Source: an uncultured Pseudomonadota bacterium
GTDB lineage: Bacteria; Myxococcota_A; UBA796; SXON01
NCBI GenBank assembly: GCA_903844155.1
Contig: CAIMSU010000064.1
Location: 1-53,528 of the forward strand
Direction: 5' to 3'
Length of the DNA: 53,528 nucleotides
The notes beneath the pieces were generated by a model, which saw nothing but the letters and a program-made list of their open reading frames with translations, made no database searches and was not told where the DNA came from. Both the position numbers and the translations under genes were made by a program. This document shows positions 37,633-44,345 of the stretch, piece by piece; within the stretch, counting starts at the first letter, position 1; each line of letters starts with the position of its first letter.

Positions 37633-37888
37633 TCAGACATGGCCCAAATGTCGCACCCGGCCGTCAGACCGGGGTCAAAAGTCGCCGGGCTTGGCGTCCG
37701 CGGGCCCCCGGCCCGTCGCGGGGCCGCGGGGTTCGGGGGGCGAGGCAAACTATCGGCGTTCGTCTGTCCGACCCCGTAGGCTGACCTGCTCGCGAACGGG
37801 GATGGTTTCCAGCAACCGCCGCTTCGACGGCCCGTCGCGACTTTTGACCCCGGTTACGAACCGAACCGCGACTTTTGAGGCGTGTCTG
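37633..37888. mobile_element. Element E1: 256-bp inverted-repeat element with paired 31-bp-phased units
   Basis: Two forward units (37633-37654 and 37664-37686) and two reverse units (37837-37854 and 37868-37888) frame about 150 bp of non-coding DNA. The shared unit starts CAGACC and ends TCAAAAGTCGCC; the two units of each pair are exactly 31 bp apart. The interior has no long ORF. It closely parallels E2 (39079-39325) and E3 (44110-44345), and with E2 it brackets the transposase gene at 37965-38861. It is probably a non-autonomous (MITE-like) element. No target duplication is obvious. Confidence 0.75.
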
Positions 37889-37964
37889 GGCGGGCGGGAC
37901 GACGTCCGCGGGCTCTGGCGAGCCGTCCTGGGCGGCCCTGACCGTCTGGCACCGCCGCCCGCGT

Positions 37965-38861
37965 TCAGGGAACCGCGAGGCGGCCCCACGGGAGCGGACT
38001 GGAGCCCGCGGCCCGACCGCGCCTCGCCGCCTGGCCCCGGCGATATTCCTGCCACACGGGCGTGCGCGTGAGATCCCCTGGCTGCAGCCCTTCCATCCGG
38101 TCGTCCCCGACCGCGCGTATGCACGCGTTGAGCACGTCGTCGTCCGTCAGGGACCATCGGGTCCCCGCGCCCCGGATGAGCCGCTCAACCTGCCGAACCC
38201 CGCAGTCGGCCCACTCGGCGAGCCGGCCAGAGTGGGTGTGCCCGAACGTTGCCGCGACCCGCAGCGCGGTCTGGCGCGGCCGGCCGTGGACGACCTCGGG
38301 CGCGGACGTGCGGAAGACCGCGCCGACCGCTTGGCTCACGGACGCGAGATCCCAGGTGCCGCCTTGCACCCGCGGGAGCGAGGAACCACCGTTCTCGACC
38401 GTGGGATCGCCGGCGACGTAGGCGTGGAAGCGCTCACAATCGGCGACACGCAGCCAGGGCGTGGCGGCGAACCCCGTCGCGTCGCGGTGCGTGCTCCAGG
38501 ACCAGGCGAGCGGGTCGGTGATGAGTCGGGCGCGACACGGATTCAGTTCGATGTACCGGACACATCGCCGGAGGTGGCCCGGGTCTGCGGCGAGCGGCGC
38601 AGGCGCGGGGACGGCGCCCCAGCGGAACGGCTGGGACCAGCGCGGCTGGGAGCCGAGCCACCGGCTGTACCCGGCGCGAACGCGGGTGAACCGGCCATCC
38701 GCGTCCGCGTGCGGCAGCAGTAGGTGGACGTGGTCCGGCATCAGGCAGCACGCGTGCGCCTCGGGAAAGCTGCGCGCGAGCGACCGCCAGAGGTGAAGCG
38801 CCTCGCGGTCGCGGGTGTAGAGCCAGTCCCGAGCGTGGGCGACGAGGTGAAAGTCAGGCAT
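37965..38861 (-). CDS. HUH/Y1 transposase, REP-associated (RAYT-like)
   Basis: The 298-residue protein is a Y1-type single-strand DNA transposase. The metal-binding HUH motif is CLMPDHVHLLLPH (His44, His46), and the catalytic Tyr is Tyr103 in RYIELNPCRARLI. The fold continues through WSWSTHRDATGF. Typical members have 150-230 residues. Here a ~100-residue C-terminal part follows (RQTALRVAATFGHTHSGRLA, DCGVRQVERLIRG), which looks like a helix-turn-helix DNA-binding unit. Such domesticated transposases act on palindromic repeats scattered in their host genome. It is flanked by the repeat elements E1 and E2. A near-perfect sigma-54-like promoter ends just before its ATG. Confidence 0.88.
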   Translation of the reverse strand: MPDFHLVAHARDWLYTRDREALHLWRSLARSFPEAHACCLMPDHVHLLLPHADADGRFTRVRAGYSRWLGSQPRWSQPFRWGAVPAPAPLAADPGHLRRCVRYIELNPCRARLITDPLAWSWSTHRDATGFAATPWLRVADCERFHAYVAGDPTVENGGSSLPRVQGGTWDLASVSQAVGAVFRTSAPEVVHGRPRQTALRVAATFGHTHSGRLAEWADCGVRQVERLIRGAGTRWSLTDDDVLNACIRAVGDDRMEGLQPGDLTRTPVWQEYRRGQAARRGRAAGSSPLPWGRLAVP

Positions 38862-38873
38862 GGCGCGCGCTCA

Positions 38874-38889
38874 AGCAAGGGGCGTGCCG
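38874..38889 (-). promoter_or_regulatory. Sigma-54-like -24/-12 promoter of the transposase gene
   Basis: On the minus strand CGGCACGCCCCTTGCT differs from the RpoN consensus TGGCACG-N4-TTGCW only at the first base. The predicted start (about 38863) is almost at the ATG (38861), so the transcript would be leaderless or nearly so. Repeated GACNTCCGTC boxes lie 135-181 bp upstream at 38998-39044. Confidence 0.5.
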
Positions 38890-38997
38890 CGCCGCCGCTT
38901 CGGCGCAGGGATTATTCCAACTATATGAGATCGTTGGATATGGTGCGCGCCTGTCGCGCGTCTCAGCGGGGCGGACGCGGAGACCGGACCGGGATCC

Positions 38998-39044
38998 GAC
39001 GGAAGTCTGCAAGACATCCGTCGGACTTCCGTCAGACGTCCGTC
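38998..39044. promoter_or_regulatory. Cluster of GACNTCCGTC boxes upstream of the transposase
   Basis: Three direct copies, GACATCCGTC (39013-39022), GACTTCCGTC (39024-39033) and GACGTCCGTC (39035-39044), recur every 11 bp, one helical turn. An inverted copy, GACGGAAGTC (38998-39007), forms a 10-bp palindrome with the middle one. The third box and its next five bases (CACCC) match the ssb upstream palindrome region (217-231). Probably a binding site for the same regulator. Confidence 0.55.
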
Positions 39045-39078
39045 ACCCCGGTGGGCAGCCTCAGCGTATCGGCGGGCA

Positions 39079-39325
39079 GCAGACCGGGGTCAAAAGTCGC
39101 GACTGGCGTTGAGAGTGGGGTCAAAAGACGCCGGGACCTGGATCCTGGACCAAACCGGGGGGTTTTGGCCCGGAGGGGTCGCGCCGCCCGACGCGTTGTG
39201 GGCCTTGCACCGTGGCGGGGACCGGCACCCCGCGTGAGCACCCGGTCCTGGATGCGGTCCAGAGCGTGCGCGGCGACATTTGAACCCGGTCAGGTCGCGC
39301 CCGGCGACGTTGAGGGGCGGTCTGC
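39079..39325. mobile_element. Element E2: 247-bp inverted-repeat element
   Basis: Forward units at 39079-39100 and 39110-39132 and reverse units at 39272-39293 and 39303-39325 are paired with the same 31-bp phase as in E1 and E3. The interior (about 140 bp, very GC-rich) has no coding character. The right end overlaps a perfect hairpin GGCGGT-CTGC-ACCGCC (39316-39331), which may also terminate the broken HTTM gene. E2 lies 217 bp upstream of the transposase start. Confidence 0.75.
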
Positions 39326-40619: not shown

Positions 40620-43070
40620 TCATGCGCGACGCCGACGCAGGAGGCCAAACGCCGCGAAGACCCCGACCCAGCCGTCAACCGGCGCGTCCGTCGCACACCC
40701 GCCACACGCCTTTTTCGGCAGGCCGTCCTTGCCGTCGCAGTTGGCGTCGAGGCCGTCGCGGGGGATGTCGTGGGCGCCGGGGTGCACCGAGGCGTTGGCG
40801 TCGTCGCAGTCGCCGGGGACGGTGGTGTAGCCGTCGCCGACGAAGCAGACGATGGCGGTGTCCGTGCTGCCGTAGCCGTCCCCATCGGTGTCCACGTAGG
40901 CGGTGATGCCGTCGGTCATGGCGGGATCGGCGGCGTCGACGAGGCCGTTGCAGTCGTCGTCCAGGCCGTTGCAGACCTCGATGGCTGCGGGGTTCATGGC
41001 GGGGTTTGTGTCGTTGCAGTCGCCGGGATTCGCGGCGTAGCCGGTGCCGACGGGGCAGTCGGTGTGCATGCTGCCCTCCGCGCCGTACCCGTCGCCGTCC
41101 GCGTCGACGTAGGAGACGTCCCCTTCGTCGACCGCCCCGTCGCAGTCGTTGTCTCGGTTGTCGCAGACATCTTCGGCAGCCGGGTTGATCGCGGCGTTGT
41201 AGTCGTCACAGTCGCCGGGTAGGGGCGCACGCGTGCTGTCCACCGGGCAGGCGGTGCCGGCCGCGCCATACCCATCGCCATCCCAGTCGACATACGAGAC
41301 GCTGCCTTCGTCGATGCTGCCGTCGCAGTCGTTGTCGAGGCCGTCGCAGAGTTCGACGCCGCCGGGGTTGGTGCTTGCGTCGGTGTCGTCGCAGTCGGCT
41401 TCGGTGCTGGTGGTCATGTGGTCGCACCGCCACACGTTCAGGGTGGATCCCGCGTAGCCGTCCGCGTCGTCGTCCGGGAAGCCCCCGGTGGCCGCGCCGA
41501 CGTCCGGGTCGACATCGTCGCAGTCGCTGTCGGCGGGGATGCCGTCCCCGTCGGCATCCGTGGGGTCCGGGACGTAGCCCGCGTACACGGCGACGAGGTC
41601 GTACCGCGTGCCGTCCGGCTTTTCGCAGAGCGCCAGGTCGGCGTAGCCATCGCCGTTGAGGTCGCCAACCCCGGCGGACAGGTGCCTCACGGTGCTTTCC
41701 GGGGGGAAGACCACGCTCGGCGTGGAGACCAGCCCGGTCGCGCTCCCCTCGTAGACCGCAGGAGTCACGGTGCTGCCGTCGGTGGCCGCAGACGACTCCA
41801 GGACCACGTCCGCGTAGCCGTCTCCGTCCGTGTCGCCAAGCATTCCGAGTCCCTCGCCGAGGTGGGTGCCGGGTGCGCCACTCAGGGGGTCAGATGGGGC
41901 ATCCGCGAGCCCGAGCGCCCCGCCGGCGTACGTGTAGACCCGCCCCTCCCCCGAGGACGATCCCGGTGCGCCGACCACTACGTCGTCGTAGCCGTCCCCG
42001 TCGATGTCCCCACCCGCGGCACTCGCCGCGCCGAAGCGGTCGGCGGCGTTGGCGCCGGTCAGCTCGTTTGCCGGCGAAGATGAAACGTTTCCGGCGGACC
42101 CCAGGTAGATGTAGACGGTGCCATCCCCATCGCCGTAGACCAGGTCATCGATGCCGTCACCATCAATGTCGCCGCCGGATGCCGCGTTCGCGCTACCCGC
42201 TGGCAGGGTCAGCACCGCCACCGATCCGAGCCCATCGCCGCTACCCTCATAGAGGTAGGCCTGAGTCCGGGATCCGAGGACCGCATCCGCGTAGCCATCG
42301 CCGTTCATGTCACCCACGGCGGCGATGGTGGTGCCGGAGCCGTCGCTCGCAGCCGTGATGACTGGCCGCGTGGCCACTGTGAGACCGGCGGGACCGCCAA
42401 GGTACGCCCGCCCGCACCAATCCCCGCCCGCCATATTCGCGACGACGAGATCGTCGTAGCCGTCGCCGTTCACGTCACCGACACCAGATGCGTAGCTCCA
42501 TTCGTAATCCGCCGTACACTCGCCCGTGGACGCGGGGATGGTCGTCTCCCCGGCTGCCCCGAACGGGGATCCGGTGACCACGACGGGCGGCACGGCGAAA
42601 CTGGACACGACCATGTCGTCGTACCCGTCCGCGTTGACGTCTCCGGCGGCGGCGGCCGCCCACCAGCCGTCGATCTCGACGGCCGGCGTCCCAAACACCG
42701 GATCCACCGTGATCGGGTAGCTCGCGCCTGCATCGTCGACCGCGAGGATCACCTCGCCCGGGCCCACCCGCATCGTCACCCCCAGCGCCCGCCCCCGCGC
42801 ATCCCACGCCCGCAACCCACCGACCGTCCAGCCGGTCGCGCCGTCGACCGCCAGCGCGATCGTCAACAGCCCCGTGCCCATCGGCCTCGTCGGCAGCGTC
42901 CACCCCTCCTCCATCCCGTCCGCCCGCCTGGCCCACCACTCGGTCACGCCCGCGGCGCTCACGTCTCCCCGCCCGACAAACGCCGTCCGCACACCCATCT
43001 TCGCGCCACCGGCGACGATCTCCACGCGCTCGCCGGGTGTGAGCAGGGTGGCGAGGTCCAGGAGCGGCAT
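40620..43070 (-). CDS. FG-GAP/MopE-like repeat protein with MYXO-CTERM-type tail
   Basis: The 816-residue protein has an unassigned N domain (about 1-125), seven FG-GAP blades (about 130-505; AAAGDVNADGYDDMV and similar), and four to five Asp/Cys metal-binding repeats (DADGDGIPADSDCDDVDPD, LDNDCDGSIDEG and so on, about 510-780). It ends with ACGGCATDAPVDGW, a short hydrophobic helix and RRRRA. That tail is a MYXO-CTERM sorting signal, in which a Cys is processed and anchored at the cell surface. Oddly, the chain starts MPLLDLATLLTPGERVEIV with no signal peptide. It lies 12 bp after the LPG-synthase-like gene, so the start cannot be moved far upstream without overlap. Confidence 0.85.
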   Translation of the reverse strand: MPLLDLATLLTPGERVEIVAGGAKMGVRTAFVGRGDVSAAGVTEWWARRADGMEEGWTLPTRPMGTGLLTIALAVDGATGWTVGGLRAWDARGRALGVTMRVGPGEVILAVDDAGASYPITVDPVFGTPAVEIDGWWAAAAAGDVNADGYDDMVVSSFAVPPVVVTGSPFGAAGETTIPASTGECTADYEWSYASGVGDVNGDGYDDLVVANMAGGDWCGRAYLGGPAGLTVATRPVITAASDGSGTTIAAVGDMNGDGYADAVLGSRTQAYLYEGSGDGLGSVAVLTLPAGSANAASGGDIDGDGIDDLVYGDGDGTVYIYLGSAGNVSSSPANELTGANAADRFGAASAAGGDIDGDGYDDVVVGAPGSSSGEGRVYTYAGGALGLADAPSDPLSGAPGTHLGEGLGMLGDTDGDGYADVVLESSAATDGSTVTPAVYEGSATGLVSTPSVVFPPESTVRHLSAGVGDLNGDGYADLALCEKPDGTRYDLVAVYAGYVPDPTDADGDGIPADSDCDDVDPDVGAATGGFPDDDADGYAGSTLNVWRCDHMTTSTEADCDDTDASTNPGGVELCDGLDNDCDGSIDEGSVSYVDWDGDGYGAAGTACPVDSTRAPLPGDCDDYNAAINPAAEDVCDNRDNDCDGAVDEGDVSYVDADGDGYGAEGSMHTDCPVGTGYAANPGDCNDTNPAMNPAAIEVCNGLDDDCNGLVDAADPAMTDGITAYVDTDGDGYGSTDTAIVCFVGDGYTTVPGDCDDANASVHPGAHDIPRDGLDANCDGKDGLPKKACGGCATDAPVDGWVGVFAAFGLLRRRRA

Positions 43071-44109: not shown

Positions 44110-44345
44110 GCAGACCGCCCTCAAAAGTCGCCGAGCGGGTTCAGACCGGAGTCAAAAGACGCCGACCGGGTGCCCGGCGGGCCAGGCTGGGCGAGCCCGG
44201 CATGGGCACGGCAGATTCTCCGCGTTCGTCCGTTCGCCGCGACACGGGCCTCGCGTCCAGAGAGCGAGGAAATAGAGCTGTACGCATCATGGGCGACTTT
44301 TGACCCGGGTCTGGAGCGCGGGGGCGACATTTGAGCCGGGTCTGC
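44110..44345. mobile_element. Element E3: 236-bp inverted-repeat element
   Basis: Forward units at 44110-44132 and 44141-44163 and reverse units at 44292-44313 and 44323-44345 are 31 bp apart in each pair. The ends begin GCAGACC and finish GGTCTGC, so the whole element is framed by a perfect 7-bp terminal inverted repeat. Part of the interior (about 44210-44235, TTCTCCGCGTTCGTCCGTTCG) resembles E1 (about 37752-37770). It fills most of the 311-bp gap between the divergently placed neighbours' ends and contains no gene. Confidence 0.78.

Follow-up and report, generated by a model that had tools for sequence, protein, structure and literature searches.

A family of short elements of fixed geometry associated with an HUH/Y1 transposase gene in an uncultured bacterium

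The DNA analysed here, hereafter the window, is a stretch of 53,528 nucleotides from an uncultured Pseudomonadota bacterium (GTDB lineage Myxococcota_A; UBA796; SXON01; assembly GCA_903844155.1, contig CAIMSU010000064.1). It contains a gene for an HUH/Y1 transposase of 298 amino acids (tnpA, 37965..38861, minus strand), recognised by ORF reading, family alignment, and profile and fold matches. This gene is bracketed by two copies of a repeated element, i.e., E1 (255 bp; 37634..37888, plus strand), 76 bp from the stop end of tnpA, and E2 (245 bp; 39080..39324, plus strand), 218 bp from its start end. A third family copy, E3 (234 bp; 44111..44344, plus strand), was located with a weight matrix 5.2 kb from tnpA; the three elements fall within 7 kb around the gene and form a strong local cluster. 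The doublet matrix recognises exactly six half-sites in the window, which make up these three elements with scores of 46-69 bits, and it never rose above -4 when the window was shuffled 30 times. The first-pass annotation had placed a Y1/RAYT-like gene between two copies of one family, which these scores bear out. The interval that it had delimited, 37633-39325, runs from the start of E1 to the end of E2 within 1 bp, and the distance of 76 bp was found again, the second one being 218 instead of 217 bp. Each of the two flanking "units", however, is a full inverted-pair element.

In all cases, the element consists of two direct copies of C[AT]GACCNGG[GC]TCAAA[AT]GTCGC, 31 bp apart, with the doublet inverted at the opposite end. 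The middle between the two doublets measures 126-179 bp, the whole element is 234-287 bp long, and an asymmetric motif, GAATTATCGGCGTTCGTCCGT, is located near the centre. In E1, the sites are at 37634-37654 and 37665-37685 (plus strand) and at 37837-37857 and 37868-37888 (minus strand); in E2, they are at 39080-39100 and 39111-39131 (plus strand) and at 39273-39293 and 39304-39324 (minus strand). The alignment of complete copies places the central motif of E1 (AAACTATCGGCGTTCGTCTGT) at 37747..37767 on the plus strand, that of E2, which is weak, at 39193-39213, and that of E3 at 44213-44233. The region between E2 and E3 also contains an ORF of 816 amino acids (40620-43070, minus strand) in which repeats of FG-GAP-like and of DCDD...C metal-binding-like type, as well as a MYXO-CTERM-type tail at the C terminus (GCGGCA...RRRRA), could be read by eye.

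The HUH domain of TnpA covers about residues 1-130 and harbors the H44xH46 pattern and a catalytic-type tyrosine, Y103; the three residues are unchanged in all the 22 relatives aligned. The best profile match of this domain is TnpAREP (4er8, E 2e-9), which is also its best Foldseek fold match (E 5e-4). NCBIfam model NF047646 was matched with E 9e-8 and 32 bits, under the model cut-off of 80. The Pfam scan of the single sequence and the phmmer search against the PDB gave no match, and 4er8 came up once the alignment served as the query. The residues by which E. coli TnpAREP reads GTAG are W94, Q95, E100, H101, and R104 (PMC6006769); in the alignment with 4er8, only the tryptophan is retained in TnpA. 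Residues from about 172 to 230 are modelled by AF2 as a confident helical C-terminal domain (pLDDT 82-96). With Foldseek, the TnpA model matched 3pvp, the DNA-binding domain of Mycobacterium tuberculosis DnaA on a DnaA box, over 67 columns with an rmsd of 1.9 and a probability of 1.00, even though the match is weak by E-value (0.10). This match most plausibly derives from the helical, DnaA-DBD-like domain at 172-230, in agreement with the extension of Bac_DnaA_C/HTH type that has been reported in TnpA-Y1 proteins of subclass 2.1; weak Pfam HTH matches were also obtained in a few relatives.

Upstream of tnpA, a sigma54-type promoter match (CGGCACGCCCCTTGC, 10/11 positions) is located at 38875..38889 on the minus strand, 28 nt ahead of the start codon, and the motif search disclosed four TGACGGACGTC-like motifs clustered between E2 and tnpA (38998..39045, minus strand), which are possible activator sites. 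The same kind of promoter was found upstream of 32 of the 43 homologs with at least 9/11 positions matched, compared with 1.8% of the control 70-mers. Upstream of L151-L190, its usual position is -27/-28 from the start codon, and copies of TGACGGACGTC precede the homolog promoters, often as two copies 21 bp apart. This fixed position predicts a nearly leaderless tnpA transcript, and sigma54 control of the gene is likewise a prediction. Immediately upstream of the promoter is a sequence similar to the elements' central motif. A paralog of TnpA with 57% identity is encoded elsewhere in the same genome (C228:48121-48960) and has upstream TGACGGACGTC motifs; neither the weight matrix nor the de novo detector recognised an element within about 4-5 kb of it.

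Pattern searches of the 8.1 Mb genome retrieved 63 doublets at about 30 places, and the reversed control pattern retrieved none. These copies are intergenic, the codon-phase contrast dropping from about 0.35 to 0.10 exactly at the elements, and no target duplications were found at them. In 29 complete elements of the genome, the middles are unconserved save for the asymmetric central motif (consensus GAATTATCGGCGTTCGTCCGT), whose positions 1-7 are 63% A+T, compared with 23% in the surrounding DNA. The left arms, from the end to the centre, measure 102-103, 113-114, or 123-124 bp and the right arms 100, 110-111, 120-122, 132, or 142 bp, both distances being quantised at about 10.6 bp. At a period of 10.5 bp, the Rayleigh R of these 29 elements is 0.97 for the left arms and 0.96 for the right ones, values whose p is not exact since common descent of the copies may inflate it, the middles being otherwise unrelated. 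With the arms phased in this way and the sites spaced by 31 bp, i.e., three helical turns, the whole set of sites faces the same side of the helix. In a variant element (C84:35787-36011), CAAGG replaces CAGACC ahead of the same core; it is nearer to the type of G005, another genome of the order, and perhaps represents a second subfamily.

The architecture was searched for at 40 loci of more distant TnpA homologs of the order with a detector based on geometry only (four 18-nt sites forming direct pairs at a given period, inverted with respect to each other). An element with a period of 31 or 32 and a score of at least 65 adjoins tnpA at 27 of the 40 loci, not all of them independent because some are close paralogs (L161/L162), and none was found near the other 13. 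All 91 controls were negative, with a maximum of 52 among 80 Markov stretches and of 46 among 11 stretches of real DNA. At scores of at least 70, the period was 31 in 24 loci, 32 in two, and 33 in one, no other tested period being represented. The median distance between element and gene is 185 bp, with upstream and downstream positions about equally frequent, and the gene is bracketed by elements in the window and at L153, L162, L176, L180, and L181. At loci with two or three copies (L176, L162, L181), the similarity begins and ends at the outer sites or within a few bases of them, which identifies the element itself as the copied unit. The core changes from one gene to the next, and does so even among five paralogs encoded by a single genome (G046). 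The central motif (AAAATCGGCGTTNGTCCGT), by contrast, is found again across diverged cores; the heptamer CGGCGTT is present in 10 of 29 middles, against 1.4 expected. A further Y1_Tnp gene of the window's own genome, used as a control, gave a borderline score of 62 at period 31 (L001:2296-2503) and is possibly weakly positive. Among distant loci from beyond the order (L212-L270), most are devoid of the architecture; L218, L231, and L236 are positive at period 31, and L235 and L250, at period 32, are weaker and partly simple sequence. Four G+C-rich TnpA loci (L191, L209, L237, and L238) are contained in MAG records titled Bifidobacterium breve or Klebsiella pneumoniae, titles that look like mislabels.

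The distribution of the cores follows that of the transposases. Among 63 genomes of the order, the core doublet of the window type is confined to its own genome and G005, if two weak matches in G042 are left aside, and close TnpA proteins (57-60% identity) are encoded only in the same two genomes, the full-length homologs elsewhere having at most 46% identity. Independently, a second core (GTCGTGAGCGC) was found only in G012 and G014, which both carry a matching TnpA subclade (73-90% identity; the G014 copy is cut short by a contig end). A third one (L178 type) occurs at scattered positions in G041, with no copy in four other genomes. Core divergence correlates with TnpA divergence (Mantel r 0.5, p 5e-4), and the partial Mantel test did not single out the C-terminal domain as its driver. 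The coexistence of a constant architecture with a diverging sequence, as with REPtron-specific REPs, argues for co-evolution rather than for the absence of a link. The proposal of a RAYT-like transposase with its own repeat family is therefore upheld both by the lack of the core where a close TnpA is lacking and by the arrangement at the 27 loci. The refuting case named in the first-pass annotation, a transposase with different repeats, does occur, each paralog having its own core, with the geometry kept.

On the whole, these data are best accounted for by an HUH transposase of RAYT/TIRYT type and a family of short elements belonging to it, which would be read as double-stranded, origin-like sites rather than as single-stranded hairpins, a reading to which we assign a probability of about 0.6. 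Recognition of double-stranded DNA is favoured by the helical spacing and by the DnaA-like domain. Several TnpA subunits might use their C-terminal domain to bind the four repeats, all exposed on the same side of the helix, and so wrap or loop the element of 234-287 bp. The asymmetric, A/T-rich centre (GAATTATC-GGCGTT) would thereby be brought into position, and perhaps opened, for nicking by the HUH domain, and copies of the element would then spread to intergenic sites. Of these steps, binding to the four sites is the best supported, followed by looping, opening of the centre, and the HUH nick; we infer binding, nicking at the centre, and mobility by TnpA from the arrangement described.

A different possibility is that the system has been domesticated, TnpA and the elements serving chromosome structure or gene regulation and the copies being kept as binding sites and not as mobile DNA. 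The intergenic position of the copies, the host-regulated look of the tnpA promoter, and the divergence between the conserved sites, which implies a long maintenance, would agree with it; however, the similar duplicated copies at several loci and the turnover of the cores from genome to genome imply copying, and the catalytic residues are invariant, so that this explanation appears unlikely. Even less probable is a REPIN-like behaviour, in which the inverted halves would form a single-stranded hairpin during replication, cleaved by TnpA as for REP elements. TnpA is indeed an HUH Y1 protein, those members of the family that have been studied act on single-stranded DNA, and whole elements fold better than shuffled ones (z from -1.4 to -7.5), as any inverted repeat would. 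Nevertheless, the halves by themselves show no folding (z about 0), the left/right identity within elements equals that of permuted pairs (1076 vs. 1072 +/- 13), in spite of the covariation of the arms expected if a hairpin were selected, the GTAG-reading residues are lost apart from the tryptophan, and a hairpin would have no use for helical spacing. The classic REP arrangement suggested in the first-pass annotation is thus not borne out, and its idea of a RAYT-like system recognising DNA of a new type, not a GTAG hairpin, largely is: the window core contains no GTAG, and only the expected REP hairpin has to be abandoned.

Inverted ends made up of tandem sites resemble those of IS21- and Tn7-type elements, and short DDE elements can depend on helical phase. 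In spite of this resemblance, it is very improbable that the copies are MITEs belonging to a DDE transposon with several sites at its ends (IS21, Tn7, or Mu type) and that tnpA is a mere neighbour, given the linkage to a Y1 gene at 27 of 40 loci, the gene-specific cores, the conserved asymmetric centre, the lack of target duplications, and the IS21 copies of the same genome, which are devoid of the core. IS21 as the owner of the ends was discarded in a comparison covering IS21-type partners, the core being absent at the IS21 loci.

Compared with the published descriptions, as far as the consulted parts of these sources go, the closest known kind is TIRYT/TIRtron (Di Nocera et al. 2013, PMC3733652), equated with TnpA-Y1 subclass 2.1 by Quentin et al. 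(2018, PMC6006769), and the literature search returned nothing closer. In the latter text, subclass 2.1 is described as widespread (14.9% of strains), with no REP-like sequence found. The published kind and the system described here have in common an HUH Y1 protein close to TnpAREP whose C-terminal domain is HTH/DnaA_C-like, inverted repeats on either side of the gene that bear no relation to GTAG REPs, and repeat families that are partly dispersed, in dimers, and different for different genes. The window core GGGGTCAA fits the TIRYT motif GGGGWSAS at 7/8 positions, and most other loci do not fit it. The repeats in those texts are TIRs, whereas the elements described here carry two doublets in inverted orientation, each of two sites 31 bp apart; this doublet geometry, helical phasing, a common central motif, and a sigma54 promoter are absent from the consulted text of both papers and may in part be shown in their figures or supplements.

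The RAYT/REPtron/REPIN systems, reportedly described by Nunvar in 2010 and by Bertels and Rainey in 2011, are similar in that the transposase lies between copies of a dispersed, intergenic repeat which is specific to the gene and forms inverted pairs, but the elements described here are ten times longer than a REP, lack the GTAG-foot hairpin and the single-strand folding of the unit, and go with the loss of the GTAG-contact residues. With DnaA-type origins and iteron/Rep nick sites, the likeness (phased boxes for a DnaA-type domain, an A/T-rich asymmetric site, an HUH nickase) may be regarded as an analogy only.

A known enzyme family thus seems to have a target-marking DNA not described before. 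Tentatively, and with somewhat less than an even chance, a clade of HUH "single-strand" transposases might have switched to double-strand, origin-like recognition: a DnaA-type domain would read four fast-evolving boxes on one helical face and bring the HUH nuclease to a central site that is conserved and easily opened, in a short mobile element of constant architecture whose sequence turns over with each enzyme, under sigma54-controlled expression. With a conserved candidate substrate of fixed geometry, the HUH proteins of subclass 2.1 become accessible to biochemistry, and a transposase is linked to origin recognition of the DnaA kind; as it is the architecture and not the sequence that is kept, families like this one would escape searches based on sequence similarity.
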